Positions 48,977 through 64,000 of a DNA stretch of 64,000 nt are shown one piece after another. Numbering within the stretch: the stretch's first letter is position 1; each line of letters starts with the position of its first letter. The translations under genes were made by a program, and so were the position numbers. Source of the DNA: Thioalkalivibrio sp. ALJ12 (lineage in GTDB: Bacteria > Pseudomonadota > Gammaproteobacteria > Ectothiorhodospirales > Ectothiorhodospiraceae); the NCBI RefSeq assembly GCF_000378305.1, contig NZ_KB899538.1:434001-498000 (forward strand), in the 5' to 3' direction. The notes under the pieces were generated by a model. It did not search any database. It saw only the letters and a program-made list of their open reading frames with translations, and was not told where the DNA came from.

Positions 48977-50128
48977 TCAGAAGTTGTACTGCATGCGGGC
49001 GAGGAAGATGTTCGGGCTGTCATCACGGAAGGCACCGTTCGACAGACTGTCCACCGCGTCGCTGTCCTTCACGTCCACCATCACGTAGTTGGCCATGAAG
49101 CGCAGGTTGGAACTGACGTAGTAGTTCAGGCCCAGCGTGAAGTTGTTCTGCTCGCCGCCCAGGATGTCGGCATCGCCGAGGTCCACCGAGCTGTAGCGCG
49201 CGGCGATCTCCCAGGCACCGGAGGGGCGCTGCGGATCAATGGTCCGGAAGCCGGTGGGTCGGTAGCCGCGGGTCTCGCCGGTCAGGACGTAGCCGGCCTG
49301 GACATGCCAGCCGTTGAAGGTGAGGTCGGAGCCCGAATCGCGATCCACCTCGGCCTGCAGGTACTCGGCACTGGCATGGAACGGGCCGCTGAGGAAACCG
49401 AACTCCAGCCCGGCCTTGGTGGTGGAGCGCGCGTCCAGCGAGCTCGTATCGATCAGGCGGGTGCCTTCGGTCGGACGCGACTCCGGGCGATCCCGGAAGC
49501 GCACGCTGCCTTCGCGCGCGTTGCTGGAGAAGGCCTCGTGAGAGAGCGAGGCGCCGAGATGGATCGTCTGGTCACCCCGGATCGGGTTGAACGTGACACG
49601 GCCGGCCATGCCCAGGGGGGCGTCGCCATCGGGATCACCCTCGATGGAGTGGGAGTAGCCCATCACCGAGAAGTGGTAGTTGTCGCCGGACTGGCCGTAA
49701 CCCAGGCCGATGCGGCGGGAATCCGTGAAGACCTGCGAGGATGCGCGCTCGATGAAGGTCATGCGATTGGAGCTGGTCAGCTGCTCCATGCCCTGGGGCA
49801 CCTTGAACTGACCGAACTGCCAGGTGCCGGCATCAGTGTCGTAGGTGACCTTCAGGTCGTTGTAGCTGATGCTTCCACCGGAGAAATCGAACTCCAGCTG
49901 GTAGCCCCAGTTCCCGATGAGAGAACCGCTGCCGCCCAGGCGTGCCCGACGCACAAGAAAACCGTCCTGGAAGGCCTCGTCTTCAAGGTTGTCGGTGTCG
50001 TGGAAGGCGGCATCGAGGTGCAGGCGTCCGCGCGGATCGAATGTCAGATCGGCCGAGGCCGGGGCGCTGATCGCGATCCCCAGCCCAAGGATCAGCGAAG
50101 TATTTACGGTGTATCTGACGGCTTTCAT
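48977..50128 (-). CDS. Phosphate-selective porin (OprP/OprO family)
   Basis: This outer-membrane porin has 383 residues, with a signal peptide of about 26 residues (ending ASA) and a beta barrel ending in Phe (MQYNF). The order of segments (FDPRGRLHLDAAFHD, GNWGYQLEFDFSG, FGQFKVPQGMEQLTSS) matches phosphate- and pyrophosphate-selective porins. A GGAGG ribosome site precedes the ATG. The gene is divergent from phnD homologues with a Pho box in between, in keeping with phosphate limitation control. Confidence 0.88.
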   Translation of the reverse strand: MKAVRYTVNTSLILGLGIAISAPASADLTFDPRGRLHLDAAFHDTDNLEDEAFQDGFLVRRARLGGSGSLIGNWGYQLEFDFSGGSISYNDLKVTYDTDAGTWQFGQFKVPQGMEQLTSSNRMTFIERASSQVFTDSRRIGLGYGQSGDNYHFSVMGYSHSIEGDPDGDAPLGMAGRVTFNPIRGDQTIHLGASLSHEAFSSNAREGSVRFRDRPESRPTEGTRLIDTSSLDARSTTKAGLEFGFLSGPFHASAEYLQAEVDRDSGSDLTFNGWHVQAGYVLTGETRGYRPTGFRTIDPQRPSGAWEIAARYSSVDLGDADILGGEQNNFTLGLNYYVSSNLRFMANYVMVDVKDSDAVDSLSNGAFRDDSPNIFLARMQYNF

Positions 50129-50290
50129 GTACTCCCTCCTGTAATCGAAAGCTTGTTCGGATATTCCGGACCGGTAGCCGAAGACCGGCGCCGGGCAGGA
50201 GGGATGCCACCCTAGTGGTGGGGTATGGCAGGGCGGTTACATGCGGGCTTCGATTTGGTGACATCCGGCCAGGGGGGGCGCGCGGCTCAT

Positions 50291-50308
50291 TTGTCACGGT
50301 CTTGTCAT
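50291..50308 (+). promoter_or_regulatory. Pho box (PhoB binding site)
   Basis: Two direct half-sites TTGTCAC and TTGTCAT are separated by GGTC, exactly the 7-4-7 arrangement of the PhoB site (consensus half-site CTGTCAT). It lies 105 bases before the phnD homologue and 163 bases from the divergent porin start, so one site may serve both. Confidence 0.8.
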
Positions 50309-50412
50309 GCGGAAGCCACGTGAGCGCAACGTGGGGCAGGCAGGGTAGCGCCTCGAATCGCCGGACCCTGATGGTCGGCACACCGCCCCCTCGTGACCTG
50401 CATGGAGAGACC

Positions 50413-51267
50413 ATGAAAAAGACTGCACTTGCATTGACGATGAGCCTGACCCTCGGTGTCTCGGCCTCCGCTCAGGCTGACCCCTGTCCCGACACTCTGC
50501 GCTTTGCCGATACCGGCATCGAGGGTATGGAAGAGATGGTTCGCACCTTTGGCCCGTTCGGCGAGGCCCTGGGCGATGCCGTGGGATCCAGGATCGAGTT
50601 CTTCCCGGTTAGTGACCGCACCGCCGCGGTCAATGCACTGCAGTTCGACCAGGTCGACATCATCCTGGCCGGCCCGTCCGAGTACGCGGTGATGCGCTCA
50701 CGTCAGGATGTGCAGTTGATGGTCGGTCTCGAGCGCGCCGAGTACGGCACCGCCTTCGTGGTCCATGCCGACAGCGATATCCATTCGCTGGAAGACCTGC
50801 GCGGCAAGGACATCGCGCTGAAAGATGCGGGATCGACCACCGGCCACATCGTGCCGTCCTGGATGCTGGTGAATGCGGGTCTGGACCTTGATCGTGACGT
50901 GAACACACACCTGCTGGATGGCGCGCGCTTCGAGGCCCTGATCAACCGCGACGTGGATGCCATGGGATCCGGTGTGCGTGATGTTGCGCGTCTGAAGGAG
51001 CGCGACCCGAATGGCGACTACCGCGTCATTGCCGAGAGCGACACCATGCCCCGCGATGCCTTTGTCGCCCGCGGCGGCCTCGACCAGGCCTGTGTGGCCC
51101 ATGTCAACGAGCAGATCATGGCCGATGCCGAAAATCTGATGGAGGCCATACTCGGGCCGGGTCGTCGTGACAAGTACACCAATGCCCGCTTCGTCAATGA
51201 CCTCACCGAAGAGGAATTCGACCTCATCACCGAGGCCTATGATCTCGTTGGCATTCGCCTGAACTAA
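50413..51267 (+). CDS. Phosphonate/phosphite/phosphate-binding protein (PhnD-like)
   Basis: The 284-residue periplasmic binding protein has a signal peptide ending QADPC. Family features are FADTGIEGMEEMVRTFGPF near the N-terminus, GPSEYAVM and ALKDAGSTTGHIVPS. PhnD-like proteins bind phosphonate, phosphite or phosphate; the ligand cannot be told here. The Pho box upstream favours phosphate starvation induction. No C-P lyase or phosphite dehydrogenase genes are in the window. Confidence 0.85.
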   Translation: MKKTALALTMSLTLGVSASAQADPCPDTLRFADTGIEGMEEMVRTFGPFGEALGDAVGSRIEFFPVSDRTAAVNALQFDQVDIILAGPSEYAVMRSRQDVQLMVGLERAEYGTAFVVHADSDIHSLEDLRGKDIALKDAGSTTGHIVPSWMLVNAGLDLDRDVNTHLLDGARFEALINRDVDAMGSGVRDVARLKERDPNGDYRVIAESDTMPRDAFVARGGLDQACVAHVNEQIMADAENLMEAILGPGRRDKYTNARFVNDLTEEEFDLITEAYDLVGIRLN

Positions 51268-51341
51268 GCCCCGGCAGCAACATTTGCAGCAGGAGACCCG
51301 GTGCCCTTGGGCATCGGGTCCTCGCTCCGTGGAGTGATGTG

Positions 51342-52148
51342 ATGAACCCCATTGTAGTCAAGGATCTGCACAAGCACTTTGGCTCGATCCATGTATTGCG
51401 CGGTCTCGATTTCGAGGTCGCCCCCGGAGAAGGTACCGTCCTTCTCGGGGCGAACGGCTGCGGCAAGTCGACCCTGATGCGCTGCCTGATTGGCCTCGAG
51501 CGGCCGGATGCCGGCACCGCCGAGGTCGCTGGCATCGACATCGCCACCGCTGGCCGACGCCGTTTGCGGGAAGTACGCCGCTCCGTCGGGATGGTTTTCC
51601 AGCGGTTCAACCTGGTCGCCAATCTGTCGGTCCTGCAGAACGTCCTGTTCGGTGCGCTGGGACGCCAGCCACTGGGCGTGATGGCACTGGCCTCCCCCTG
51701 GGCACCGCAGGAAGAGCGCGACCGCGCGATGCACTGCCTGCACCGAGTAGGGCTCGCCGATCGGGCCGGCCAGCGTGCCGACACGCTCTCCGGCGGCCAG
51801 CAGCAGCGAGTAGCCATTGCACGCATGCTGATGCAGGCCCCGCGATTGGTCCTGGCGGACGAACCCGTCGCCAGCCTCGACCCGAGATCCGGGCGCGAGG
51901 TGATGGACCTGCTCTGGGAGATCGTGCGGGAAGAGGGCATGACCGTGGTATGCACCCTGCATCAGCTGGACCTTGCTCGTGAGTACGGCGACCGCCTGCT
52001 TGGCATGAAGGCCGGCAAGATCCAGCTCCAGGGGCGTATCTCCGATTTCGATACCGGCAGCCTCGAATCGCTTTACCACGGCGAGGTCCGGGTGGATGGT
52101 GACCCGCGGGAGGAAGTGCCTCTCGCAACCGCTGCCTCTGCCTCCTGA
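51342..52148 (+). CDS. Phosphonate/phosphate ABC transporter ATPase (PhnC-like)
   Basis: This 268-residue ATPase partners the PhnD-like protein and PhnE-like permease. Walker A is GANGCGKST, the Q-loop is MVFQRFNLVANLSVLQNVL, the signature is LSGGQQQRVAIARML and Walker B is LVLADEPVASLD. The ATG at 51342 has GGAG seven bases upstream; the GTG one codon before is a poorer choice. It follows the binding protein by 74 bases. Confidence 0.9.
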   Translation: MNPIVVKDLHKHFGSIHVLRGLDFEVAPGEGTVLLGANGCGKSTLMRCLIGLERPDAGTAEVAGIDIATAGRRRLREVRRSVGMVFQRFNLVANLSVLQNVLFGALGRQPLGVMALASPWAPQEERDRAMHCLHRVGLADRAGQRADTLSGGQQQRVAIARMLMQAPRLVLADEPVASLDPRSGREVMDLLWEIVREEGMTVVCTLHQLDLAREYGDRLLGMKAGKIQLQGRISDFDTGSLESLYHGEVRVDGDPREEVPLATAASAS

Positions 52149-52178
52149 CGCGCCCAGACCTTTCACGGAACCAACCCA

Positions 52179-52985
52179 ATGCATCCAGTCGATCAACGAG
52201 TGGCGGCGCTTGCGCCCGCCCGATTCACCTCGCCCTCGGTCTTTACCTGGGTGATTCTTGTAGGTTTCGCTGCCTTCTTCATACAGGGCTTTCTGTCCGT
52301 TGATGTCACCCTGGCCCGTCTGGCTCAGGGATTCGGCAATCTCGGGGGATTCTTCGCTCAGGCCTGGCCGCCCGAGACCAGCCGGCTGGAGCCGATTGCC
52401 TGGTCCATGCTGGAAACCCTGAACATGGCCATTGTGGGCGTGACGGTCGGCGTAATCCTGAGCGTGCCGATGGCCCTGCTGTGCGCCTCGAACACCGCCC
52501 CCAATCGCCTGGTGCGGACCCTCAGCCGGACCATCGTGGCCACCATGCGCACCATCCCCGATCTGATCTGGGCGCTGATCTTCGTGGTTGCGGTGGGGCT
52601 TGGGCCGCTGGCCGGAATCCTGGCCATCATCATGGACACCATCGGTTTTTGCGCACGCTTCTTCTCCGAACGTATCGAGGAGGTCTCGAAGGGGCCATCC
52701 GAGGCCCTGGCCTCCACCGGCGGGGGCCGGCTCTCGGTGATCTTCGGGGCCATCCTCCCCGAGTCGACGGCCTCGATGACCGCCACCAGCCTGTACGGGG
52801 TCGAAAAGGCGATCCGCTCGGCCGTGGTGCTGGGGCTGGTCGGGGCCGGCGGCATCGGGGTCGAACTGTCCACCGCAATGCGCATGTTCCAGTTCGATCA
52901 GGCGTTGACGATCATCCTGGTGATCCTGGTCGTCGTCATTGGTTTCGAACAGATCTCCTCAGCAATCCGTCGTCGAGTGATCTAG
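52179..52985 (+). CDS. Phosphonate/phosphate ABC transporter permease (PhnE-like)
   Basis: The 268-residue permease has about six membrane helices. The cytoplasmic loop for the ATPase is visible (PSEALASTGGGRLSVIFGAILPE), and the segment TMRTIPDLIWALIFVVAVGLGP is typical of PhnE. It ends the phnD-phnC-phnE set. A terminator hairpin follows. Confidence 0.9.
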   Translation: MHPVDQRVAALAPARFTSPSVFTWVILVGFAAFFIQGFLSVDVTLARLAQGFGNLGGFFAQAWPPETSRLEPIAWSMLETLNMAIVGVTVGVILSVPMALLCASNTAPNRLVRTLSRTIVATMRTIPDLIWALIFVVAVGLGPLAGILAIIMDTIGFCARFFSERIEEVSKGPSEALASTGGGRLSVIFGAILPESTASMTATSLYGVEKAIRSAVVLGLVGAGGIGVELSTAMRMFQFDQALTIILVILVVVIGFEQISSAIRRRVI

Positions 52986-53095: not shown

Positions 53096-54715
53096 TTACC
53101 CGGTTGCCTCCTTCAGACGGATCAGCTTGAGCTCGTGGAACAGCCCCATCATCAGGCTGACGCACATGAACAGCAGCACGATCACGAAGGGCAGGCCGGC
53201 GCTGACGGCACCGGCCTGCAGGGCCTGCAGCGCGGCCGCGCCACCCACCGCCAGCAGCACACCGGCGATCACGCCCTCGACCGTGGCCCAGAACAGGCGC
53301 TGGGACTGCGGGGCGTCGGTCTTGCCGCCGGAGGTGATCGAGTCGATCACCAGCGAGCCGGAGTCTGACGAGGTGATGAAGAAAACCAGGACCAGGGTGA
53401 TTGCCAGCAGTGAGGTGATCGTGGTCAGCGGCAGGTGCTCGAGCATCTGGAACAGCGCCAGCGAGGAGTCACTGATGCCGTCGGCCAGTGCACCGACCCC
53501 GTCGCGGGCCTGATCCAGGCCGGTCCCGCCAAAGGCACTCATCCAGATCACGGTCACGGCCGTTGGCACCAGCAGCACCGCGGTCACGAACTGGCGTACC
53601 GTGCGCCCGCGCGAGACCCGTGCGATGAACATGCCGACAAACGGCGACCAGGAGATCCACCAGGCCCAGAAGAAGATCGTCCACTCGTGATAGAAGGTCT
53701 GGTCGTCACGACCCACAGGGTTGCTGAGCGGCCACATGTACTGGGCGTAGGCGCTCAGCGTGATGCCGGTATTGGAGAGGAAGGCGATAAAGCCGCCGAA
53801 CAGGGCCACGAACAGTAGCAGTACCACCGCCAGCGTCAGGTTGATGTTGCTGAGCACGCGCACCCCGCCATGGATGCCGCGCATGATCGACAACAGGGCA
53901 ATTACCGTGACGCCGATGATGATCGCGACCTGGGTGTTCAGGCCGGCTTCGATGCCGAACACCGACTCCAGCCCCGATGCCGCCTGCTGCGCCCCAAGAC
54001 CCAGGGAGGTGGCCAGGCCGAACAGGGTGGCCAGTACCGCCAGGGTGTCGATCACATGCCCGAGCGGGCCCCAGATCCGCTCGCCGAAGATCGGGTAGAA
54101 CGCGGAGCGAATGGTCAGCGGCAGGCCCTTGTTAAAGGCAAAGAACGCCAGCGCCAGGCCTACCACGGCATAGATCGCCCATGGGTGCAGGCCCCAGTGA
54201 TACATCGTCGCACCCAGGGCCGCGTGCTTCGCTTCCTCGGTGCCGCCCTCGATGCCCAAAGGCGTCCCGAACCACTCGGTGAAGTAGCCTACCGGTTCGG
54301 CCACGGCCCAGAACATCAGGCCGATGCCCATGCCGGCGGCGAACAGCATCGAGAACCAGGACAGCACGCTGAAGTCCGGCTTCGCATCCTGGCCGCCAAT
54401 CCGGATGCTCCCGACCGGCAGCAGGATCAGGGCCAGACAGAACAGCACGAACAGGTTGCCGGCCGACAAGAACAGCCAGTCAAAGGTCTCGCCGATCCAG
54501 GCACGCGTGGCGCCCAGGCCCTCGTCGGCCTGTTCCGGGAACATCAGGGACAGGATCACGAACGCGAGGATCAGCAGGGCGCTGACGGCGAATACCGGGT
54601 TGTGCAGATCCAGCCCCAGCGGGTTGATGTTCTGTTCCCCGATCTCGTGATCGGTCTCGTAACGGGCCTCGAGCTCCTCGATCTCCCGTTTCGGGTCTTG
54701 TGCGTTGTCGCTCAC
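53096..54715 (-). CDS. BCCT-family betaine/choline/carnitine transporter
   Basis: BCCT carriers take up betaine-like osmolytes with Na+ or H+. The 539-residue protein has twelve membrane helices. The Gly-rich segment GMGIGLMFWAVAEPVGYF and the Trp motif WTIFFWAWWISWSPFVGMFI are present. I chose the GTG at 54715 because an AGGAGG site lies five bases upstream. The acidic N-terminal tail of about 35 residues is typical of osmotically active carriers. The cytoplasmic C-terminus is short, which may mean that osmotic activation differs from BetP. Confidence 0.9.
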   Translation of the reverse strand: MSDNAQDPKREIEELEARYETDHEIGEQNINPLGLDLHNPVFAVSALLILAFVILSLMFPEQADEGLGATRAWIGETFDWLFLSAGNLFVLFCLALILLPVGSIRIGGQDAKPDFSVLSWFSMLFAAGMGIGLMFWAVAEPVGYFTEWFGTPLGIEGGTEEAKHAALGATMYHWGLHPWAIYAVVGLALAFFAFNKGLPLTIRSAFYPIFGERIWGPLGHVIDTLAVLATLFGLATSLGLGAQQAASGLESVFGIEAGLNTQVAIIIGVTVIALLSIMRGIHGGVRVLSNINLTLAVVLLLFVALFGGFIAFLSNTGITLSAYAQYMWPLSNPVGRDDQTFYHEWTIFFWAWWISWSPFVGMFIARVSRGRTVRQFVTAVLLVPTAVTVIWMSAFGGTGLDQARDGVGALADGISDSSLALFQMLEHLPLTTITSLLAITLVLVFFITSSDSGSLVIDSITSGGKTDAPQSQRLFWATVEGVIAGVLLAVGGAAALQALQAGAVSAGLPFVIVLLFMCVSLMMGLFHELKLIRLKEATG

Positions 54716-54905
54716 GCTCACCTCCTTGGTGTGATTGGGGGACGCTGGTCCAGACGTTCTCCGGTCCATCGCCTGGAACTGTCTGACCGCCAGGGCGGTA
54801 GTCTTCGATTGAGACCGCGTCTCCCGAGGTACGAGTCGTTTCGTTCTGGCATCCGGCCGTCGGAATCCGAAACGAAAAATTCGGGACCTTCATGGCTGAC
54901 TTCCA

Positions 54906-54931
54906 TTGCTCACCCGCTAGCGGGTGAGCAA
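54906..54931. promoter_or_regulatory. Perfect palindrome between the porin and BCCT genes
   Basis: The arms TTGCTCACCCGC and GCGGGTGAGCAA enclose the bases TA. No T-run follows, so it is either a weak terminator of the porin gene or an operator. A smaller inverted repeat (GAGAC CGC GTCTC) lies at 54813-54825 upstream of the BCCT start. Confidence 0.5.
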
Positions 54932-54955
54932 CAAACGTGCGCGGCGGATTGGCTT

Positions 54956-56008
54956 CTAGAAGCTGTAGTGCATGCCGACCATGAACACGTTGTTGCTTCC
55001 ATCCTCGGGAAAGTCAGCCCCGGCCCGGCCGGTGTCTCGGGCCCTTGATGCCGGTACCGCACCGGTTGCTTCTTCTTCGTAGTAGTACTCGGCAAACAGG
55101 GACAGCCCGTCCATCCAGTTGAACGCGTAGCCCAGGTGGAAGACGTCTCCGCCGTAGTTGTCGACGTTGGCGTAGGTTCCGTGGAATATATGTTGCCCCA
55201 CGGCGTAGGCGGCGTAGATGTTCGCGGCGACGTCGCCGTCGTCCCCGAAGGCCCCGGCGTCCTGGTCGCTTTCAATGTATTCGACCTTGGCACCCATCGA
55301 CCATGGGCCCATGCTGTGCATCGCGGACACCCCCCAGATCCGAGTGTTCTGCTCGCCATTGGCATCATCGACCCCGACGGAAAGAGTCGTGTCGCCGAAG
55401 GCGTACGAACCGGTCACCTGGTAGCGATCATCTGGAGAGCCCGATGCATCGTCGTAGCCGCCGTTCGCGCTGTAGGAGGCCGCGAACGAGAAGCCGTTGA
55501 AGTCCGGAGAGTAGTACATGAGGCTGTTGCTCTCACGGAAGGTCGTATAGGTCGCGAAGCCGCTCTGGTAGGAGTAGAACATGTCCACCGGGAAGGCGAT
55601 CGCGTTGTAATACGGCAGCCAATCGCGGCCATACGCCACGGTACCGAATGCGCCGTCGAGCCCGACCTTGCCGATGCGGACGTCCTCGTCTTCGCCACTG
55701 AAGGGGTCCTGTACTCGGCCGTTGGCCAGGTCGAGCGGGATTTCCAGCTGCGCAAACGCGTTCAGGCTTTCATTGATCTCATAGTTGGCGTTGAAGCCGA
55801 TGCGTGAATAGGCATCCCGGAAGCCGTCATAGCTGTCCTCGCCATCCGGGTCCGCCGTTTCGTACTGCAGTCTCAGTGAACCGTAGAAATCGAACTCGAC
55901 GCCCCCTGCACCCTCCTGTTCTGCGGGGCTGACCGCTGGCGCCAGAAGAAGCGCCGTGGCAACGGCCCCGGCCAGTGGAGTGAGATTCCACGAAATGTTG
56001 TTTTTCAT
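54956..56008 (-). CDS. Gram-negative porin (general trimeric type)
   Basis: The 350-residue outer-membrane protein has a signal peptide (about residues 1-29, ending SPA) and a beta barrel ending in Phe (GMHYSF). Segments such as FYGSLRLQYETAD and SRIGFNANYEINESLNAFAQ are typical of 16-strand porins. The mature protein is very acidic, as expected in a salt-loving organism. The ATG at 56008 has AAGGAA upstream. It is divergent from the marR gene. Confidence 0.88.
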   Translation of the reverse strand: MKNNISWNLTPLAGAVATALLLAPAVSPAEQEGAGGVEFDFYGSLRLQYETADPDGEDSYDGFRDAYSRIGFNANYEINESLNAFAQLEIPLDLANGRVQDPFSGEDEDVRIGKVGLDGAFGTVAYGRDWLPYYNAIAFPVDMFYSYQSGFATYTTFRESNSLMYYSPDFNGFSFAASYSANGGYDDASGSPDDRYQVTGSYAFGDTTLSVGVDDANGEQNTRIWGVSAMHSMGPWSMGAKVEYIESDQDAGAFGDDGDVAANIYAAYAVGQHIFHGTYANVDNYGGDVFHLGYAFNWMDGLSLFAEYYYEEEATGAVPASRARDTGRAGADFPEDGSNNVFMVGMHYSF

Positions 56009-56264
56009 TATTCGTTCCTTTTGGCAGTTCGATCCTGGAATCCGAAAGAGAAACAGGCCCCTGTACCCCCGGGGGACCGATGGCGAGCTCCCGAGGAACC
56101 GCCACAACCGTTTCTGTCGCGTATGGCTAACGAGAGGCCCGTTTTGTTGCCCAGAGACCGGATCCTGGTGACCTCGGCTAGCCGGAAACCCCATTAATAG
56201 AACGCGCTCGCCGCTTTCGCCACCAAAGGACAAGTTGCAACTCCATTATTTTTGTACAAAACTA

Positions 56265-56280
56265 TATGGCATTTGCCATA
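56265..56280. promoter_or_regulatory. Palindromic operator upstream of the MarR gene
   Basis: The 16-mer TATGGCATTTGCCATA is two perfect 7-base arms around TT, the size and symmetry of MarR-type operators. It lies just upstream of the preferred marR start at 56296 and follows an AT-rich stretch that probably contains the promoter. Autoregulation by the adjacent MarR protein is inferred. Confidence 0.65.
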
Positions 56281-56295
56281 CTGAGTCCGACTGTG

Positions 56296-56814
56296 ATGTC
56301 AGCTGTTTCTGCCCAGAACGAACCTCATCGCCCCGCGACGGAAGGGGAACCGGATCTGTCGCGTTCCGTGATCCGTCAGCTGCGCGTGATCATCCGCGCC
56401 CTGCAGGGGCATTCGCGGGCAGTGGAGCGTGCCTGCGGGATCAGTGCCTCGCAGTTGTGGGCCCTGTGGGAGCTGCAGCGCACGCCCGGGCTGAATGTCA
56501 GCGACCTTTCGCGCCGGCTGTCGGTGCATGCCTCGACCACCTCGAACCTGCTGGACAAGCTGGAATACAGCGGGCTCGTCGAGCGCCGCCGCCCGGAGAA
56601 GGACCAGCGCATCGTGCGGCTGTATGTCACGCCCAAGGGGGAGGCGCTCCTGTCCGACGCCCCGGCAGCCCCCCAGGGCGAGTTGAACCGCGCGTTGCAC
56701 GCTCTCCCGCCCGAGCGGCTGGCGGATCTGGACGAAGGGCTTACCCTCCTGGTCGAGGCGATGAACACCACCGAGCCTCGTGCCGGTCTGCAGCCGTTCG
56801 AGGTGAAAACCTGA
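56296..56814 (+). CDS. MarR-family transcriptional regulator
   Basis: The protein has 172 residues from the ATG at 56296; an ATG at 56266 lies within the palindromic operator and is less likely. The winged helix core is about residues 25-125: SQLWALWELQRTPGLNVSDL, then the recognition helix STTSNLLDKLEYSGLVERRR and the wing DQRIVRLYVTPKG. It is followed by the small membrane protein and the hydrolase cluster on the same strand, so it is a candidate regulator for them. Confidence 0.9.
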   Translation: MSAVSAQNEPHRPATEGEPDLSRSVIRQLRVIIRALQGHSRAVERACGISASQLWALWELQRTPGLNVSDLSRRLSVHASTTSNLLDKLEYSGLVERRRPEKDQRIVRLYVTPKGEALLSDAPAAPQGELNRALHALPPERLADLDEGLTLLVEAMNTTEPRAGLQPFEVKT

Positions 56815-56840
56815 GCGGCGTGGCCGCCAGGTAACGCGCC

Positions 56841-57242
56841 ATGCGCTCCCTCCTGCCCGCCAGCCTGCTGCTTCTGCTGCTGCCGCTGGTTGTACTGGCC
56901 GAGCCCCGATTCGACGACCCGCCCACGGACTCGCGTGATGGCGGTCTAACCCTCGAATGGAACGCCGAGGGGCCCGTCGAACTCGAACAGGCGAGCGGTC
57001 CGGACTTCGACGACGCCCGCGTGATCTATCGCGGTGGCGACACCAGCAGCGTAGTCAGCGGCCTCCCGGACGGCGAATATCGCTTTCGCCTGCGGGCCGA
57101 TGGCGCGGACGACTGGGCCGACGAGGCCCGGATCGATGTGGCGCACCACAGCCTGGCCCGCGCGTTCGGCTTCTTCGCGCTGGGAGGCGTCGTCTTTCTG
57201 GTCCTGATCGTGGCCATCCTGCGCGGTCGCCCGCGCGACTGA
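56841..57242 (+). CDS. Small membrane-anchored protein with a fibronectin-III-like domain
   Basis: The 133-residue protein has a signal peptide (residues 1-20, ending VLA), a beta-rich domain (about 25-95) with the look of a fibronectin type III fold (LTLEWNAEGPVELEQ, SGLPDGEYRFRLRADG), and a C-terminal membrane helix (about 107-127) with a basic tail. It should sit in the inner membrane facing the periplasm. I do not recognise a specific function. It lies between marR and the M20 hydrolase gene. Confidence 0.75.
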   Translation: MRSLLPASLLLLLLPLVVLAEPRFDDPPTDSRDGGLTLEWNAEGPVELEQASGPDFDDARVIYRGGDTSSVVSGLPDGEYRFRLRADGADDWADEARIDVAHHSLARAFGFFALGGVVFLVLIVAILRGRPRD

Positions 57243-57311
57243 ATTCACCTGCCCCGCCCCGTCGATCCGCGTGTACCGCGACCGGGGCCGGCGGCCCTAT
57301 CGGAGAACACG

Positions 57312-58553
57312 ATGCACGAACTCAAGATCAACATGCAGCGCCTGCAGCAGGACATTACCGAGCTGGGGCAGATTGGACGCGATGCCGACCGTGGCTTGCA
57401 CCGCCGGGCGTTCAGCGAGGGCGACCGCGCGGGGCGCGAGTGGTTTCGCGGCCGCCTGGAGGCCGCGGGCCTCGACGTCTGGCAGGATGGCGCCGCCAAC
57501 CTGCACGGTCGCCTGGACTACGACGGCAAGCGCCCGGTGGTCGCCATGGGCTCGCATCTCGATACCGTCCCCGGTGGTGGCCCGCTGGATGGTGCCCTGG
57601 GGGTGCTGATCGGGCTGGAGGTGCTGCGCACGGCCAAGGAACATGAGGTCGACTTGCAGTACCCGCTGGAGGTCATCGACTTCACTGACGAGGAGGGCCG
57701 CTTCGGCGGCATGTTCGGCTCCCAGGCGATGGCCGGAAAGCTGACCCCGGAGAGCATCAGCCATGCCCGTGACCTCGAGGGCATCACCCTGGTCGAGGCG
57801 ATGGCCAACTGGGGCCTGAATGCCGACGACGCCCTGAGCGCGCGACGCGACCCGCACACCCTGCATGCCTTCATCGAGACCCATATCGAGCAGGGCCCGG
57901 TGCTGGATCGCCGCGGCCTGAGCGTGGGCGTGGTCGAGGCCATCACCGGCCTGTTCAAGTGGGAGGTGCGCCTGAAGGGCCAGCCGAACCATGCGGGCAC
58001 CACGCCGATGGACATGCGCATCGACGCCTTCCAGGGGCTGGCCGAATTCGGCGGCGAGATCAATCGCCTGCTGGAGGAGCACGGCAGCCCGAACTCGCGC
58101 GCGACTATCGGCCGCGTGGAGCTCTCGCCGGGCGCGGCGAACACCGTGCCGGGCATGGCGACTTTCTCCTTCGAGGTGCGCGATACCGACGAGAAGGTAT
58201 TGACCGCGCTGGCCCACGCGGCCCGCCGCACGCTGTCCAGCCTCGCGCGCCGGCGTGACCTGATGTTCGAGTTCGACGTGCTCTCGGAGATCGATCCGGT
58301 GCGCTGCGACACGGGCATCGTGCAGACCATCGAGGCGACCGCCGAACGCATGGGGCTGGAGTACCTGACCATGCCCAGCGGCGCTGCGCACGACACCCAG
58401 AGCATGAGTGCAATCACGCGTACCGGCATGATCTTCGTACCGAGCCTGCAGGGGCGTAGCCATTCCGCGGCGGAATGGACAAACTGGGAGGACATCGAGA
58501 CCGGCGCCAACCTGACGCTGCAAAGCGCCCTGGCCCTGGCCGCCCGTTCGTGA
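57312..58553 (+). CDS. M20-family N-carbamoyl-L-amino-acid hydrolase / ureidoglycolate-type amidohydrolase
   Basis: This zinc hydrolase of 413 residues belongs to the family that cleaves N-carbamoyl amino acids, allantoate or ureidopropionate. Metal ligands are visible: His82 and Asp93 (SHLDTVPGGGPLDGA), Glu127-Glu128 (TDEEGRFGG), His191 (THIEQGPVL) and His360 (AAHDTQSMS). The dimerisation-domain segment GQPNHAGTTPMDMR carries the substrate-binding His227. It starts the hydrolase-transporter-carbamoyltransferase cluster. A carbamoyl-amino-acid substrate fits the carbamoyltransferase gene four genes downstream. Confidence 0.85.
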   Translation: MHELKINMQRLQQDITELGQIGRDADRGLHRRAFSEGDRAGREWFRGRLEAAGLDVWQDGAANLHGRLDYDGKRPVVAMGSHLDTVPGGGPLDGALGVLIGLEVLRTAKEHEVDLQYPLEVIDFTDEEGRFGGMFGSQAMAGKLTPESISHARDLEGITLVEAMANWGLNADDALSARRDPHTLHAFIETHIEQGPVLDRRGLSVGVVEAITGLFKWEVRLKGQPNHAGTTPMDMRIDAFQGLAEFGGEINRLLEEHGSPNSRATIGRVELSPGAANTVPGMATFSFEVRDTDEKVLTALAHAARRTLSSLARRRDLMFEFDVLSEIDPVRCDTGIVQTIEATAERMGLEYLTMPSGAAHDTQSMSAITRTGMIFVPSLQGRSHSAAEWTNWEDIETGANLTLQSALALAARS

Positions 58554-58589
58554 GCATCCCCGATCACCGCGACCCAAGGACCGCCCGGC

Positions 58590-59333
58590 ATGGCCAATAA
58601 CGACAACGTCTCCCAGCTCACTGACTACGACTCTCTGGACCCGCTGCGCGAGCAGTACCAGGAGAGCCTGATCACGACCCCGGTGCTGCGTCAGGAACTG
58701 CGCGAGCACCACGTCGCTCTGCTGTGCATTGACCTGCAGTACCTGGATGCCGCGCGCGGTCATGGGGTGTTCGCCGACTCGGTGCAGTCCGGCGTGCCGC
58801 CCGAGGCACAGGAGTACTACTTCAACCGCCTGGAGCAGACGGTGCTGCCGAACGTGCGCCGGCTGCAGGATGCATTCCGCGAGCAGGGGCTGGAGGTCAT
58901 CCACACGCGTATCCGTTCGCTGACCCACGACGGGCGCGACCGCAGCCCGGGCCACAAGCGCCTGAACCTGCATGCCGCGCCCGGCTCCAAGGATGCGGAG
59001 TTCGTCGAGCAGGTCGCACCGGTGGGCGACGAGATCGTGCTGGACAAGACCGCCAGCGGCGTCTTCAATTCGACCAACCTGCACTACATCCTGCGCAACC
59101 TGAACATCTCGGCACTGTTCATCGTGGGTGTGTATTCGAACGAGTGCGTATCCACGGCCGTGCGCGATGCCTGTGACCTGGGTTTCTATGTCACGCTGAT
59201 GGACGACGCTACCGCGACGGTGACCCCGGAGATGCAGAAGGCGACGATCACCACCATCAAGGATCGCTACGCCCGCGTGATGACCACCGACGAGGCGATC
59301 CGCGAGATCAAGAAGGTGAAGGAGGCCTCGTGA
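58590..59333 (+). CDS. Isochorismatase-fold cysteine amidohydrolase
   Basis: The 247-residue protein belongs to the cysteine hydrolase family that includes nicotinamidase, N-carbamoylsarcosine amidase, biuret hydrolase and ureidoacrylate hydrolase. The catalytic triad is Asp48 (LCIDLQ), Lys153 (LDKTASG) and Cys186 (YSNECVSTAVRDA). It therefore should cut an amide or carbamoyl group. It lies between the M20 hydrolase and the symporter. The stop overlaps the symporter start (GTGA). Confidence 0.88.
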   Translation: MANNDNVSQLTDYDSLDPLREQYQESLITTPVLRQELREHHVALLCIDLQYLDAARGHGVFADSVQSGVPPEAQEYYFNRLEQTVLPNVRRLQDAFREQGLEVIHTRIRSLTHDGRDRSPGHKRLNLHAAPGSKDAEFVEQVAPVGDEIVLDKTASGVFNSTNLHYILRNLNISALFIVGVYSNECVSTAVRDACDLGFYVTLMDDATATVTPEMQKATITTIKDRYARVMTTDEAIREIKKVKEAS

Positions 59334-60796
59334 CCGGCCTCGACGACCCGATCCTCCCGAGTTCCATCGCCTGGGGGCTGCTGATCGCGTTCAGCATCCT
59401 CTGGGTGGCGCTCGGCTGGTGGCTGGGTCGTCACAACAAGACCGCCGAGGACCACATGCTGGCCGGGCGCAACGTCGGGCTGGCGCTGGCCACCGCGACC
59501 GCGATGGCCACCTGGGTGACGGCCAACACCACGATGACCGCCCCGCAGCTGGCGTTGCAGCTGGGCGTCTGGGGCATGCTCGGGTATTCCCTGGGGGCGC
59601 TGGGCCTGATCCTGTTCGCGCCGCTGGCTCGTCGCATCCGCGAGCTGATGCCGCGCGGCTTCACCTCCGGGGACTTCATCCGGCTGCGCTTCGGCACCTT
59701 TACCTGGCGGGTATTCCTGGTGGTCTCGCTGATCTACGCCTTCGGCTGGCTTGTGTCGATGGCGATGGCCGGCGGGGTGCTGATCAATGCCCTGGCCGGG
59801 ATCGACTATCGCGTGGGCATGACCGTGATCCTCACGGTCTGCGTGATCTACACCCTGCTGGGCGGTCTGCGCGCGGTTATCGGTACGGACTTCATCCAGA
59901 CCATCATCATCATCGCGGGTGCGGCGTTCATCGCCTGGCTGACCATCGACAAGGTTGGGTTCGAGGCGATCCATTTCAACCTGATGGAAGAGCGCCCGGA
60001 ACTGCTGAGTCTGCTGTTCCCGGCCGCAATCATGTTCCTGTTCAACAACCTGCTGTTCGGGGTCGGCGAGATCTTCCACTCCAACGTCTGGTGGTCGCGC
60101 GCCTTCGCGTTTGGCCGCAACGTCGGCTTTCGTGCCTACCTGCTGGGCGGGCTGCTGTGGCTGCCGATCCCGATCGTCGCCGGCTTCATCGCCCTGGCCA
60201 CGCCGGCGCTGGGCATCAACGTGCCCGCCGCGGACATGGTCGGGCCGCTGGTCGCGGCCGAGGTCCTCGGCCTGACCGGCGCGATCGTGGTCTTCATCGT
60301 CGTCTTCGCCGCCTTGGCCTCGAGCCTCGACTCGCTGCTGGCGGCCACCTCGGACCTGGTCACCCGCGATATCTACCGCGGCCATATCCGCCCGCAGGCC
60401 AGCGAGCAGAGCCAGTTCCGCGCGACCAAGGTGATCGTTGTGCTGCTGGGTCTGCTGACCTGGCTGGCCGCGAGCTATCGCGGCTCGCTGCCGATCATCG
60501 GCTCGCTGGCCGAACTGCTGTACTTTACGGGGGCCTTCGTGGCCTCGGCGATCTGGCCGATCGTCGCCGGGCTGTACTGGCGGCGGGCGAACCCTCAGGG
60601 CGCGGCCTGGTCGATGATACTGGGGTCGGGCATTGGGCTGGCCAGCTATTTCCTGATCGGCTTCTATGTCGCGGCACTGGTGGGCGCGGCCGTCTCCCTG
60701 GCCGTGATGGTGCTGAGTACCTGGCTGGCGCCGCGGCCGTTCGACTGGGGTCGCCTGTCCCGCGACGCCGCGGCCGAGGAGGTCCGGACCGCATGA
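59330..60796 (+). CDS. Sodium:solute symporter (SSS family)
   Basis: SSS carriers use the Na+ gradient to import small solutes such as amino acids, sugars, pantothenate or ureides. The 488-residue protein starts with GTG and has about 13 membrane helices. The segment TAMATWVTANTTMTAPQLAL is the discontinuous first core helix, and VVFIVVFAALASSLDSLLAA contains the conserved Ser pair of the Na+ site. The solute cannot be read from sequence, but the cluster suggests a carbamoyl-amino-acid or its amide. The stop overlaps the next gene by four bases (ATGA). Confidence 0.9.
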   Translation: MTGLDDPILPSSIAWGLLIAFSILWVALGWWLGRHNKTAEDHMLAGRNVGLALATATAMATWVTANTTMTAPQLALQLGVWGMLGYSLGALGLILFAPLARRIRELMPRGFTSGDFIRLRFGTFTWRVFLVVSLIYAFGWLVSMAMAGGVLINALAGIDYRVGMTVILTVCVIYTLLGGLRAVIGTDFIQTIIIIAGAAFIAWLTIDKVGFEAIHFNLMEERPELLSLLFPAAIMFLFNNLLFGVGEIFHSNVWWSRAFAFGRNVGFRAYLLGGLLWLPIPIVAGFIALATPALGINVPAADMVGPLVAAEVLGLTGAIVVFIVVFAALASSLDSLLAATSDLVTRDIYRGHIRPQASEQSQFRATKVIVVLLGLLTWLAASYRGSLPIIGSLAELLYFTGAFVASAIWPIVAGLYWRRANPQGAAWSMILGSGIGLASYFLIGFYVAALVGAAVSLAVMVLSTWLAPRPFDWGRLSRDAAAEEVRTA

Positions 60797-60915
60797 TGAT
60801 CTCGTCGACTGCCTTGTCCGTGATCGTTGTGGTTGCCACGCTGGTCGCCACCCTGACCCCGATCCTGCTGCTGGCCCTGTTCATTCGCGACTGGAAAAAA
60901 GGATGCCTCTGGTGA
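60793..60915 (+). CDS. 40-residue single-pass membrane protein coupled to the symporter
   Basis: The reading frame is ATG-ATG-initiated, 40 residues, with one hydrophobic helix (about residues 7-31, rich in Val, Thr and Leu) and a basic end RDWKKGCLW. It overlaps the symporter stop by four bases (ATGA), and its own stop overlaps the likely GTG start of the carbamoyltransferase by four bases (GTGA). This double coupling is the main evidence that it is a gene. It may be a small subunit of the symporter. I know of no named family it belongs to. Confidence 0.65.
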   Translation: MMISSTALSVIVVVATLVATLTPILLLALFIRDWKKGCLW

Positions 60916-61985
60916 ACTACACCGAAGATCCCCTGCACGTGCTCCACCCGAAAGACGGCGCCGCCGGCACCGACCGCCCGAAGGCGCTCCTTGAGGCCGT
61001 GGAGGAAGACCCGGACCCGCTCCTGAAGCTGGCGGCCGCGCATGTGGTTTCCAGTCAGCAGTTCTCGCGCGATGAACTGCTGCAGCTGTTCCGTCTGGCG
61101 GCGCAGTACGAGACCACTCCGGCGCTGATGCACCTGCCGCTGGCCGGCAAGATTCTGATCAGTGCGTTCTACGAGCCGTCCACGCGCACGCGGCTGTCCT
61201 TCGAGAGCGCCTGGCACCGGCTTGGCGGGGCGGTGATGTCGATCACCGACCCCAAGAGCACCGGCATCGCCAAGGGCGAGTCGCTGGCGGACATCGCCGA
61301 GATGTTCAACAACTACGGCGACGTGCTGGTGCTGCGCTCCTCGGATGGCGAGGCGGCGCACAACATGCTGGAGAACCTGCGCATCCCGCTGGTCAACGCG
61401 GGCAACGGGATCGACGAGCATCCGACCCAGGCGCTGGCGGACGTCTACACCCTGGCCAAGTGGCGACCGGAGCTGTTCACCGGCCCGGTGGCGCCGGAGG
61501 ACCGCATCAAGGTCGGTATCATCGGGGTGCCCTCGCGCATGCGCACGGTGCGTTCGCTGCTGCGCCTGCTAAGCCTGTTCCCGGAGGCAATCGAAGAGGT
61601 CGTGATCATCTCGCGCGAGGACGAGAACTTTGACCCGGGTCAGCGCGAGGAGCTGGAAGAGGCCGGCCTGAAGCTGCGCGTGGTGCACGAACTGGACCCG
61701 CTGCTGCCGGAGCTGGACGTCGTCTACATCAACGCCATTGCCTGGGTGGGGGATACGTTCGAGTCCATGGGCGAGGGCCTGAAGCTGGATCGCAACTCCC
61801 CGCTCAAGAAGGGCGCGGTCATCCTGCACCCGCTGGCACGCGGTGACGAGCTGTCCACGGACCTCGACGACACCCCGCACAACTGGTACTTCGCCCAGGC
61901 CCGCGGGGCCGTGTTCGTGCGCATGGCGCTGCTGACCACGGTGGTCCGCCGGATCAGCGCGGTCATGGATACCCCGGAAGACTGA
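60912..61985 (+). CDS. Carbamoyltransferase of the aspartate carbamoyltransferase family, with altered acceptor site
   Basis: The protein has 357 residues from the GTG at 60912, which overlaps the preceding small gene; an ATG at 60903 is possible but its ribosome site is too close. The carbamoyl-phosphate site matches PyrB: STRTR at residues 90-94, Lys121 (AKGE), Arg142 and His170 (HPTQ). Arg211 matches PyrB Arg167. PyrB Arg229 and Gln231, which hold the aspartate side chain, are replaced by Ala275 and Ala277, and HPLPR is HPLAR (306-310). So it should carbamoylate an amine other than aspartate. The N-terminus is about 40 residues longer than PyrB. Confidence 0.85.
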   Translation: MNYTEDPLHVLHPKDGAAGTDRPKALLEAVEEDPDPLLKLAAAHVVSSQQFSRDELLQLFRLAAQYETTPALMHLPLAGKILISAFYEPSTRTRLSFESAWHRLGGAVMSITDPKSTGIAKGESLADIAEMFNNYGDVLVLRSSDGEAAHNMLENLRIPLVNAGNGIDEHPTQALADVYTLAKWRPELFTGPVAPEDRIKVGIIGVPSRMRTVRSLLRLLSLFPEAIEEVVIISREDENFDPGQREELEEAGLKLRVVHELDPLLPELDVVYINAIAWVGDTFESMGEGLKLDRNSPLKKGAVILHPLARGDELSTDLDDTPHNWYFAQARGAVFVRMALLTTVVRRISAVMDTPED

Positions 61986-62005
61986 GCCAAAGTCGAACTT
62001 GAACC

Positions 62006-62044
62006 GCGAGCGGCGTGGCGCGCCGTAAACCGCGCCCCGCTCGC
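62006..62044 (+). other. Stem-loop between the carbamoyltransferase and amidotransferase genes
   Basis: An outer stem GCGAGCGG / CCGCTCGC (62006-62013, 62037-62044) stacks on an inner stem GGCGCG / CGCGCC (62017-62022, 62031-62036) with a three-base bulge and an eight-base loop. It lacks a T-run, so it may act as an attenuator or an mRNA-stabilising hairpin rather than a simple terminator. Confidence 0.5.
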
Positions 62045-62074
62045 ACCCACGGAATCGAACCAAGGAGACATGCC

Positions 62075-64000
62075 ATGTGTGGCATCGCCGGAATCTTTCA
62101 CGCCGACCCCAACCGCAAGGTGGACCCGCAGACCCTGGTCAACATGGCCGCGATCCAGTATCACCGCGGCCCCGACGGCTTCGGCTACAAGACGCTGGAC
62201 GACCGCGGCGTGGGCTTCTCCCATGCCCGCCTGTCGATCATCGACCTGGACGAAAACCGCGGCCGCCAGCCGTTCTGTATGACCGACGGATCGATCATGA
62301 CCGCGGTCAACGGCGAGCTGTACGACTACAAGCGCATCCGTACCGACCTGACCTCGCGCGGCGTGCAGTTCCGCACCAAGAGCGACTCCGAGATGGTCAT
62401 GCACCTGTACCGGCGCGAGGGGCTGGAGGATGCGATCAAGCACTTCCGCGGCGAGTTCGCGATCTCGCTGTATGACCGCGAGCATGATCGCCTGGTGCTG
62501 ATCCGCGACCGCTTCGGCATCAAGCCGCTGTATTTCACCGAGGCCAATGGCAGCTTCGTGTTCGGCTCCGAGCTGAAGGTGCTGTTCGCCAATCCCGACG
62601 TCCCGCGCCAGTTTGCCGATGACGGCCTGTACCACCAGCTGATGCAGACCATGGTCCCGGGCACCACTGCGTTCGAGGGCATCCACCAAGTGAAGCCCGG
62701 CCACATGGTCATCGTCGAACGGGCCCACGGCAAGCTGAAGGTGCGCCAGGAGAAGTACTGGGACATGGACTTCCCGCTGGCCTCCGAGCGCCCGCCGGAG
62801 GAGGATGCCGACGAGAACTACTGGATCGAGGGCGTGCGGGAACAGTTGATGGAGGCCGTCCAGCTGCGCCTGGAGGCCGACGTGCCGGTCGCCTGCTACC
62901 TCTCCGGCGGGATCGACTCCTGCATCACCCTGGGCCTGGCCTCGGCCAGCCAGCAGTCGCCGGTCAAGGCCTTCACCATCGGCTTCGACAACGACGACTA
63001 CGACGAAACGGCGATTGCCCGCGAGATGGCCGAGAGCGTCGGCGCCGACCAGGACATCCTGAAGCTGAATGCGGATCACCTCTACGACAACTTCGAAGAG
63101 GCCCTGTGGCACGCCGAGCGCACCATCTACAACACGCTGGGGGTGGCCAAGCTGTTGATGAGCCGGCACGTGAACGAGGCGGGCTACAAGGTGGTGGTGA
63201 CCGGCGAGGGCTCGGACGAGCTGTTCGGTGGCTACCCGGCCTTCCGCCGCGACATGTTCCTGCACGGCCTGGACACCCTGCCGGAGGCTGACCGCGCCGC
63301 CTGGCAGCAGATGCTGAACGAGTCCAACGAGCTGTTCTCCGGCGCGATGCTGGCCGAGGACGAGGTCGACGACCCCGAGTTCACGAAGATGATGGGCTTT
63401 ACGCCGTCCTGTCTGCAGCCCTGGCTGGCGGCAGCCGAGCACGTGCCCGGCCTGCTGGCGCCGGAGCGCCGCGAACGCATGCAGGACTACCAGCCCGGCA
63501 AGGCGATCGCCAACGCCCTGGACGACGACATGCTGGATGGCCGGCATCCGCTGGACAAGGCCCAGTACGTCTGGATCAAGACCATGCTGGAGGGCCAGAT
63601 CCTGACCTGGGGTGGCGACCGCATGGACATGGCCAACTCCATGGAGGCGCGCCCGCCGTTTCTCGACCACCACCTGGCCGAGTTCTGCGCCCACCTGCCG
63701 CCGACCCTGCGCATCAAGGGCCGCACCGAGAAGTACGTGCTGCGCGAATCGATGAAGGGCCTGCTCCCGAAGGTGCTCTACGAGCGCGAGAAGTTCGCGT
63801 TTATGGCCCCGCCGGCGCACACCGACCCGGTCAAGTGGGCAGCGATGAAGGCCCTGGCCGACCGCTACCTGTCGCCGGAGAAGGTGGCCGAGGCGGGTCT
63901 GCTGGACCCGGAAGGCGTGCGCCGCGTGTTCGAGATCCACGAGGACGAGACCACCCCGGCAGCCACCCAGGTCCAGCTGGACGCGGTGATCAACCACATG
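62075..64000 (+). CDS. Asparagine-synthetase-like glutamine-dependent amidotransferase (partial, runs off the window)
   Basis: At least 642 residues are present, with no stop before the window ends. The N-terminal glutaminase domain has Cys2 after Met, Arg52 (HARLSI), Asn79-Gly80 (NGELYDY) and Asp104 (SDSEM). The synthetase domain has the pyrophosphate loop SGGIDS at 277-282 and GEGSDELFGGY. An AAGGAG site precedes the ATG. It should activate a carboxylate with ATP and amidate it with glutamine nitrogen. It is longer than E. coli AsnB (554 residues). Homologues such as AsnO amidate the alpha-carboxyl of a Gln-Gln dipeptide osmolyte. The true substrate is unknown. Confidence 0.9.
   Translation, partial: MCGIAGIFHADPNRKVDPQTLVNMAAIQYHRGPDGFGYKTLDDRGVGFSHARLSIIDLDENRGRQPFCMTDGSIMTAVNGELYDYKRIRTDLTSRGVQFRTKSDSEMVMHLYRREGLEDAIKHFRGEFAISLYDREHDRLVLIRDRFGIKPLYFTEANGSFVFGSELKVLFANPDVPRQFADDGLYHQLMQTMVPGTTAFEGIHQVKPGHMVIVERAHGKLKVRQEKYWDMDFPLASERPPEEDADENYWIEGVREQLMEAVQLRLEADVPVACYLSGGIDSCITLGLASASQQSPVKAFTIGFDNDDYDETAIAREMAESVGADQDILKLNADHLYDNFEEALWHAERTIYNTLGVAKLLMSRHVNEAGYKVVVTGEGSDELFGGYPAFRRDMFLHGLDTLPEADRAAWQQMLNESNELFSGAMLAEDEVDDPEFTKMMGFTPSCLQPWLAAAEHVPGLLAPERRERMQDYQPGKAIANALDDDMLDGRHPLDKAQYVWIKTMLEGQILTWGGDRMDMANSMEARPPFLDHHLAEFCAHLPPTLRIKGRTEKYVLRESMKGLLPKVLYEREKFAFMAPPAHTDPVKWAAMKALADRYLSPEKVAEAGLLDPEGVRRVFEIHEDETTPAATQVQLDAVINHM

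Follow-up and report, generated by a model that had tools for sequence, protein, structure and literature searches.

The reported osmotic solute N-alpha-carbamoyl-L-glutamine 1-amide (CGA) goes back to a 1991 description from a halophilic bacterium (as cited in PMC1224877), and the relevant passages of PMC1224877 and PMC3857566 place it in Ectothiorhodospira marismortui; a passage of PMC7824335 adds other purple sulfur bacteria. Genes have been described for another osmolyte, N-acetylglutaminylglutamine amide (NAGGN): in the Pseudomonas cluster PA3458-PA3461, according to the sections of PMC8070244 that deal with it, the MarR regulator PA3458 represses the gene of the AsnO-type amidotransferase for NAGGN, a hydrolase is also encoded, and loss of the NAGGN genes slows growth at high osmolarity. 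Here we analyse a stretch of 64,000 nucleotides from Thioalkalivibrio sp. ALJ12 (positions 434001-498000 of contig 1 in a 2.78 Mb genome), hereafter the window, which carries a cluster encoding a carbamoyltransferase (CT) and an AsnB-type amidotransferase (AsnB). We put the probability that CT and AsnB make the osmolyte CGA at roughly 75%. This reading is favoured because N-carbamoylation and alpha-amidation are the modifications that define CGA, and the two enzymes matching them stay together across genomes. As far as sequence reaches, our results support the original prediction, which had read the cluster as a candidate CGA pathway, with substrates and a product that we infer. It had also been aware of no described genes for such a pathway; we found none in the open-licence literature, outside which most subscription papers fall.

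A conserved carbamoyltransferase-amidotransferase pair

Besides CT and AsnB, the cluster encodes an N-carbamoyl-L-amino-acid hydrolase (NCH), an isochorismatase-fold hydrolase (ISO), a sodium:solute symporter (SSF), two small proteins (SMP and h133) and a MarR-family regulator. CT is found at an identity of at least 60% in 33 of 58 relatives (the window genome included) and is 99% identical to the CT of another genome of the same genus (G001; L-numbers and G-numbers are our labels for retrieved loci and genomes, respectively). Besides a 22-residue fragment at 86% in G014, the next-best match among the 58 relatives is at 38% (169.5 bits). Within the order, one CT match is present in 41 of 47 genomes and in all 38 good ones. 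Of 370 genomes sampled from the class, 27 match at E 1e-60, 23 of them strongly (>550 bits); five weaker places score 232-259 bits, one being in a genome that also holds a strong match. The phylum sample yielded a match in two of 397 genomes, namely the window genome and G521; the G521 protein is a weaker relative (367.6 bits) and likewise stands in the arrangement CT-AsnB-SSF.

Linkage was counted in the best 80 of 164 confirmed CT relatives from a scan of named genomes (the 80 named loci), accepting neighbours on either strand and at any identity and scoring short contigs as misses. In 77 of the 80, AsnB follows CT at a distance of no more than 4 kb, with a median gap of 71 bases and 75 cases within 600 bases; in L104 and L115 hydrolases stand between the two genes. 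Of the three misses, two are due to contig ends; in the remaining one, Thiorhodospira sibirica, a 74% identical AsnB is encoded at another place in the genome. AsnB is likewise near CT in all 23 gammaproteobacterial genomes of the class sample. The frequencies of the other genes vary more: NCH is near CT in 64 of the 80 named loci and 23 of the 23 class-sample genomes, ISO in 52 and 22, SSF in 66 and 20, h133 in 44 and 20, and SMP in 39 and 14, respectively. In loci of Thioalkalivibrio and Ectothiorhodospira the MarR gene precedes the cluster, and a MarR match occurs near only 8 of the 23 class-sample clusters, downstream in some. No SSF match was found in the eight Ectothiorhodospira loci and no hydrolase match in the three Aliidiomarina loci. 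CT and AsnB make up an almost invariant core and, given these linkage counts, the arrangement of the cluster is not due to chance. A constant CT-AsnB pair with variable companions is what would be expected if the pair is synthetic and the genes for recycling and transport are optional. CT and AsnB distances are also correlated (r 0.81, 71 rows), but linked genes are expected to show this, and no weight is given to it. Thiorhodospira sibirica has an arrangement of its own (L035/L079, L157): CT and the small membrane protein stand apart from the other cluster genes and are followed by an open reading frame (ORF) that, judged by eye, is acyltransferase-like, and neither near CT nor near AsnB is there an SSF, NCH or ISO match.

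The original prediction proposed a search for the gene pair in genomes of known CGA producers, and E. marismortui has it. The genome of strain DSM 4180 (FOUO00000000, type strain, according to a passage of PMC8877833) carries MarR-NCH-ISO-CT-AsnB in this order on NZ_FOUO01000006 (L070); DSM 4180 is the type strain of the producer species and not necessarily the strain of 1991. The CT-AsnB pair is present in all eight listed Ectothiorhodospira loci. Three OTCace_N genes were found in E. marismortui, of which one (L180) groups with ArgF and another (L179) with PyrB in the tree, the third being CT. Since ArgF and PyrB take two of the three, CT is the sole free candidate if CGA is made from carbamoyl phosphate by this superfamily.

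The two candidate synthetic enzymes

CT is a member of the aspartate/ornithine carbamoyltransferase superfamily, with both domains, the S-T-R-T motif and H134 present. It nevertheless scores below the aspartate carbamoyltransferase model TIGR00670 (198.8 bits vs a cut-off of 236.95) and far below the ornithine carbamoyltransferase model TIGR00658 (85.5 vs 280.85 bits), and falls outside ArgF in the tree. The window genome has three PF00185 genes, one in the ArgF clade (L003), one in the PyrB clade (L004) and CT, which by these sequence criteria adds a third carbamoyltransferase to PyrB and ArgF. A quick tree was built from 64 CT, 9 PyrB, 7 ArgF and 4 CT2 sequences (CT2 are relatives considered below), with support from the Shimodaira-Hasegawa-like approximate likelihood ratio test (SH-aLRT) only and with long branches flagged. 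In this tree CT and CT2 lie on one side of a long branch with an SH-aLRT of 100; E. coli PyrB is set apart from the remaining PyrB sequences by a long branch, CT2 falls inside CT's side, and the inner order is not relied on.

The residues of CT point to an acceptor other than aspartate. The 144 CT reading frames comprise 109 distinct sequences, and the 102 of these that reach 300 residues were aligned with E. coli PyrB (MG1655 record). S52, T53, R54, T55, K84, R105, H134, R167, T168 and R269 are invariant in all 102, as are the segments MRT (E. coli positions 166-168) and HPLARG (265-270); Q137 is kept in 101 and is K in one, and IAW is invariant in 15 aligned CT sequences. Relative to PyrB, CT has an extra N-terminal segment of about 45 residues. 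E. coli R229 is replaced by alanine in 74 sequences, by serine in 23, by threonine in four and by lysine in one, and no CT residue aligns with Q231 or R234. We take R167 and R229 of aspartate carbamoyltransferase (ATCase) to be the sites that hold the two carboxylates of aspartate. CT has kept R167, T168 and K84 but lacks R229 and Q231, and its acceptor would therefore be expected to have a free alpha-carboxylate and no side-chain carboxylate. Such an acceptor fits glutamine, as well as a carbamoylation that takes place before amidation, so that CT may be a glutamine carbamoyltransferase. The non-aspartate acceptor site of the original prediction is borne out by the alignment, with R229 replaced in every CT and Q231 lacking a counterpart. 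Indirectly, the presence of separate PyrB and ArgF in the genome and the loss of the R229/Q231 site also argue that CT is neither an aspartate nor an ornithine enzyme. An AlphaFold model of CT based on 13 sequences, with a mean predicted local distance difference test (pLDDT) score of 72.3, confirms an ATCase-like fold and nothing more.

The CT2 proteins (L175:3857-4927, L176:5425-6573, L177:7712-8863 and L178:7600-8817) represent four of the five weaker places in the class sample and are 36-40% identical to CT. Their S-T-R-T and H134 positions are altered, and they are possibly non-catalytic carbamoyltransferase relatives. By eye, CT2 in L177 and L176 lies near a large protein (with a von Willebrand A match in L177) and an ABC transporter. 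CT2 was rejected as a member of the cluster, as its carbamoyl-phosphate residues are changed and no match to AsnB, NCH or ISO lies close to it in the four fetched loci.

The cluster AsnB scores well above the cut-off of TIGR01536 (420.8 vs 267.1 bits). Among the 103 homologues that passed identity and length filters (the catalytic-residue counts of NCH and ISO given below are defined in the same way), Cys2, SGGIDS and the acidic motif are invariant; we take these residues, like the invariant ones of NCH and ISO, to be the catalytic residues of their families. A quick AsnB tree comprised 33 sequences, including 18 CT partners; of further sequences, 13 of 16 partners and 7 of 9 paralogues met the length and motif filter. 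All 18 CT partners form one side of a branch with an SH-aLRT of 100. The parallel with AsnO drawn in the original prediction holds as an analogy but not as membership: AsnB belongs to a separate clade and is far below the NAGGN AsnO model TIGR03104 (303.1 vs 570.1 bits). From its sequence and context, AsnB is predicted to amidate the alpha-carboxyl of N-carbamoyl-glutamine.

Two other roles for AsnB were considered. GatB is over its cut-off in seven of seven genomes and AsnRS in none of the seven; asparagine for proteins is therefore obtainable through GatCAB without AsnB, and housekeeping asparagine synthesis was judged unlikely on these grounds. This, together with the distinct clade, speaks indirectly against an amidotransferase that makes asparagine. 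The cluster was also rejected as a NAGGN system, there being a separate AsnO in the window genome and in E. marismortui and no acetyltransferase among the cluster genes. In the window genome, AsnO passes the TIGR03104 cut-off (911 bits) and an XrtA-type amidotransferase scores 1061 bits; in E. marismortui the scores are 985 and 1080 bits, respectively. The AsnO gene of the window genome lies at about 114573-115613 of contig 3 (L144, L210), and this genome may make NAGGN too.

Cluster layout, accessory genes and occurrence in other phyla

The eight genes of the cluster are co-directional and tightly packed, taking up positions 56266-64000 of the window, with the last gene ending at 64093 (Table 1). 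The enzyme types, the Na+ symporter and the small membrane protein claimed by the original prediction are all where it placed them. Its extent of the cluster needs amendment at both ends, the amidotransferase gene running 93 bases past the window and MarR and h133 upstream also being part of the conserved unit. SSF and the 40-residue ORF share an ATGA overlap at 60793-60796, and this ORF in turn overlaps the start of CT at 60903-60915.

Table 1. Genes of the cluster and their positions in the window
Gene product	Length (residues)	Positions	Strand	Basis
MarR-family regulator	182	56266..56814	+	PF01047 56.9 bits
h133, signal/anchor protein	133	56841..57242	+	C-terminal membrane helix judged by eye
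NCH, M20 N-carbamoyl-L-amino-acid hydrolase	413	57312..58553	+	TIGR01879, NF006771
ISO, isochorismatase-fold hydrolase	247	58590..59333	+	PF00857 114.9 bits
SSF, sodium:solute symporter	488	59330..60796	+	PF00474 118.3 bits
SMP, membrane protein overlapping SSF and CT	40	60793..60915	+	ORF reading
CT, carbamoyltransferase	360	60903..61985	+	PF02729 134.4 bits and PF00185 45.0 bits, over cut-offs
AsnB-type ATP-dependent amidotransferase	672	62075..64093 (window ends 64000)	+	PF00733, PF13537, TIGR01536

After AsnB comes a PfkB kinase gene on the opposite strand. The BCCT carrier that had been noticed a few genes upstream is indeed present (53096-54769, minus strand), but it accompanies the cluster in few relatives (L041-L043, L046, L048, L061 and, as a 43% match, L173), is linked to it only in some Thioalkalivibrio loci and was left out as a functional partner. 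Together with a general porin, also on the minus strand, it takes up 53096-56233, just upstream of the cluster. At 48977-52985 of the window, a phosphate-selective-type porin (PF07396, minus strand) stands beside a phosphonate-type ABC transporter (binding protein, ATPase and permease).

NCH passes TIGR01879 (370.3 vs 204 bits) and scores best with NF006771, 'allantoate amidohydrolase' (532.1 bits vs a cut-off of 399), a subfamily model that does not settle the substrate. Its second-best model is ErtE, N-carbamyl-L-glutamate amidohydrolase (NF058540), at 390 bits and below the cut-off of 520; for the NCH of Synechococcus MU1642 ErtE is the best model, at 431 bits and again below the cut-off. 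H82, D93, E127, E128, H191 and H384 are invariant in all 97 NCH homologues. We suggest that NCH would convert N-carbamoyl-glutamine to glutamine. In ISO, D48/K153/C186 are invariant in 70 of 70 homologues, and the protein shows weak matches to biuret hydrolase, RutB and N-carbamoylsarcosine amidohydrolase. Its tentative assignment as the alpha-amide hydrolase is made by elimination, as these relatives cleave ureido groups. The roles of the hydrolases are thus the weaker part of the mechanism that we propose, and the probability given to the CGA reading is based on CT and AsnB. SSF would re-import the solute, and h133, for which profile searches gave no Pfam or NCBIfam match, is probably an accessory of the symporter; the three class-sample clusters without SSF are also without h133.

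In the proposed mechanism, CT would carbamoylate glutamine at its alpha-amino group with carbamoyl phosphate as the donor, giving N-carbamoyl-glutamine. AsnB would then convert the alpha-carboxyl to an amide at the expense of ATP, with nitrogen drawn from the amide of a second glutamine. The resulting CGA would be a neutral, nitrogen-rich solute. When salt falls, the alpha-amide would be stripped first, tentatively by ISO (or, in cyanobacteria, by a DUF1028 protein), and NCH would then remove the carbamoyl group, regenerating glutamine and releasing carbon dioxide and ammonia. Lost solute might be recaptured by SSF and its two small partners, while MarR may act as the repressor of the operon, as PA3458 does on the Pseudomonas NAGGN genes. 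The substrates and products, the order of the steps, the division of work between the hydrolases, transport and regulation are all what we infer.

The CT-AsnB pair also occurs in Synechococcus, Cyanobium, Aliidiomarina, Pleionea, Aliikangiella and Kordiimonas, and in metagenome-assembled genomes (MAGs) labelled Spirochaetia, Leptospiraceae and Bacteroidetes; many of the named carrier genera are salt-lake and marine. CT sequences from cyanobacteria share about 57-64% identity with the window CT. Of 271 genomes in the Synechococcus sp. MU1642 family, 57 encode CT, and AsnB adjoins it in all 15 fetched regions, which represent 14 of the 57. Twelve of the CT-bearing genomes are 1.4-1.7 Mb in size; the six of them that were fetched (L191-L195, L206) measure 1.6-1.7 Mb and have the arrangement CT-AsnB-NCH-DUF1028, with 33-35% G+C in the region and no symporter match in the CT region. 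We take the small size and this G+C content to be Prochlorococcus-like traits. One genome of the same family, G1019, has two SSF-CT-AsnB-NCH clusters (L197, L198).

DUF1028 (PF06267) proteins are encoded in cyanobacterial loci without ISO, for example at L191:4210-4896 (minus strand) and L097:13946-14635 (plus strand). Among 112 loci, 24 have DUF1028 and 67 ISO, none has both and 21 have neither. In 20 of the 24 loci the DUF1028 gene comes after NCH and shares its strand; in L121, L199, L200 and L204 it stands between AsnB and NCH in the opposite orientation. All DUF1028 cases are cyanobacterial, and the mutual exclusion with ISO may reflect a single event. Judging from gene content, DUF1028 likely replaces ISO as the amide hydrolase in cyanobacteria. 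Our literature search found no relevant papers on DUF1028.

Alternative readings and relation to known systems

The identity of the substrate rests on pocket residues and one producer, which leaves room for the same two steps leading to another carbamoylated amino-acid amide, made for example from asparagine, or for lineage-specific products. The 57-64% identity of cyanobacterial CT and the different hydrolase set there, with DUF1028 in place of ISO, would agree with this. We nevertheless consider it unlikely, since the MRT and HPLARG segments do not vary across the 102 CT sequences nor IAW across the 15 aligned, the cluster is present in E. marismortui, and CGA is the sole solute of the carbamoylated amino-acid amide type found in the literature searched. 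Less probable still is that the same product serves to store nitrogen, to be released by NCH and ISO. With four nitrogens per product and breakdown enzymes in the same operon, such a cycle would make sense, but recovery by a symporter is typical of compatible solutes. Furthermore, CGA itself is reported as an osmotic solute (in passages of PMC1224877 and PMC3857566), and the parallel of a MarR regulator with an AsnO-type enzyme is an osmotic one in the sections of PMC8070244 concerned. Two further observations speak for storage or fit both uses: Prochlorococcus-like genomes carry the genes, while upper-ocean Prochlorococcus is said to use nitrogen-free osmolytes, and nitrogen assimilation in T. 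versutus is up at high salt, which is compatible with either use.

The least probable reading, to which we give very little weight, is that the cluster assembles ordinary genes that share no pathway: a spare ATCase, an asparagine synthetase and enzymes for the catabolism of allantoate, hydantoins or ureido compounds. Every protein does match a common family, and the NCBIfam models for asparagine synthase and the allantoate amidohydrolase subfamily are passed. Against this, PyrB and ArgF are already in the genome, CT is under the ATCase model cut-off and without the aspartate site, GatCAB can supply asparagine, and CT and AsnB remain linked across Gammaproteobacteria, cyanobacteria and the MAGs labelled Spirochaetia, Leptospiraceae and Bacteroidetes. 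Pure allantoate, hydantoin or ureido catabolism was rejected because it leaves unexplained CT and AsnB, which by family are spenders of carbamoyl phosphate and ATP.

Synthesis of CGA by CT and AsnB remains the reading that we prefer, although a number of observations weigh against it. On the protein side, the best model of NCH bears an allantoate amidohydrolase label, the known relatives of ISO cleave ureido groups rather than alpha-amides, and in the CT model the acceptor loop is poorly defined. E. marismortui has further AsnB-type genes, so the cluster AsnB is not the sole amidation candidate there, and synthesis and breakdown within one operon would need separate control. With CT in 38 of 38 good genomes of the order, its presence in E. 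marismortui is not independent of the family; it still counts because the base rate in the class is 23 of 370. The remaining points come from the literature. PMC3857566, in the passage concerned, describes CGA as a minor solute of so far one organism, whereas the genes are far more widespread. The word 'carbamoyl' is absent from the main text of three papers on Prochlorococcus and Synechococcus (PMC12834511, PMC9606707 and PMC10654061). In the passages searched of three Thioalkalivibrio papers (PMC3368412, PMC9062515 and PMC8092127), betaine and a sucrose gene are reported and CGA is not named. Finally, the high-salt transcriptome of T. versutus D301 shows glnA 8-fold up, nitrate uptake strongly up and betaine genes unchanged, and the cluster genes are not in its printed table of upregulated nitrogen-metabolism genes.

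What emerges is a two-gene hypothesis for a compatible solute known since 1991, the genes of which are undescribed in the open-licence literature searched. Nor did the titles and abstract openings of that literature yield a relevant paper linking a carbamoyltransferase with a compatible solute and an asparagine synthase. The hypothesis offers a function for genes that family models would call aspartate carbamoyltransferase-like and asparagine synthase, and a likely new acceptor specificity in the textbook aspartate/ornithine carbamoyltransferase superfamily. It also provides a candidate role for DUF1028, a family of unknown function. If it is true, a nitrogen-rich dissolved compound is predicted in soda lakes, salterns and the sea, together with a route for its breakdown and uptake. 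We hold a broader proposal at slightly less than even odds, namely that CGA is a widespread nitrogen-rich solute of saline and marine bacteria, including about one-fifth of the MU1642-family species sampled, some of them with Prochlorococcus-sized genomes, that CT has a new specificity and, jointly with these, that in cyanobacteria DUF1028 takes the place of ISO as the CGA amidohydrolase.

Compared with known systems, the cluster combines familiar enzymes in an unfamiliar setting. CT shares with PyrB the fold, the carbamoyl-phosphate site, R167 and K84, but differs in lacking R229/Q231, in scoring below TIGR00670, in its separation by a long branch and in its N-terminal extension, and its genome also has PyrB. 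NCH resembles ErtE and carbamoylase amidases, passing TIGR01879 and NF006771 and scoring 390 bits on ErtE, whereas its context is a carbamoyltransferase and an amidotransferase rather than ergothioneine or allantoin breakdown. With the CGA of E. marismortui the link is the type-strain genome, which carries the cluster; there CGA is known as a metabolite without described genes in the papers found. In the NAGGN system, the N-block is an acetyl-glutaminyl group from Ngg, while here it is proposed to be a carbamoyl group introduced by a carbamoyltransferase. In both, however, an AsnB-type enzyme would turn an N-blocked glutamine derivative into a neutral osmolyte by amidation, and a hydrolase and a MarR regulator are part of the cluster (for NAGGN, as set out in the relevant sections of PMC8070244).

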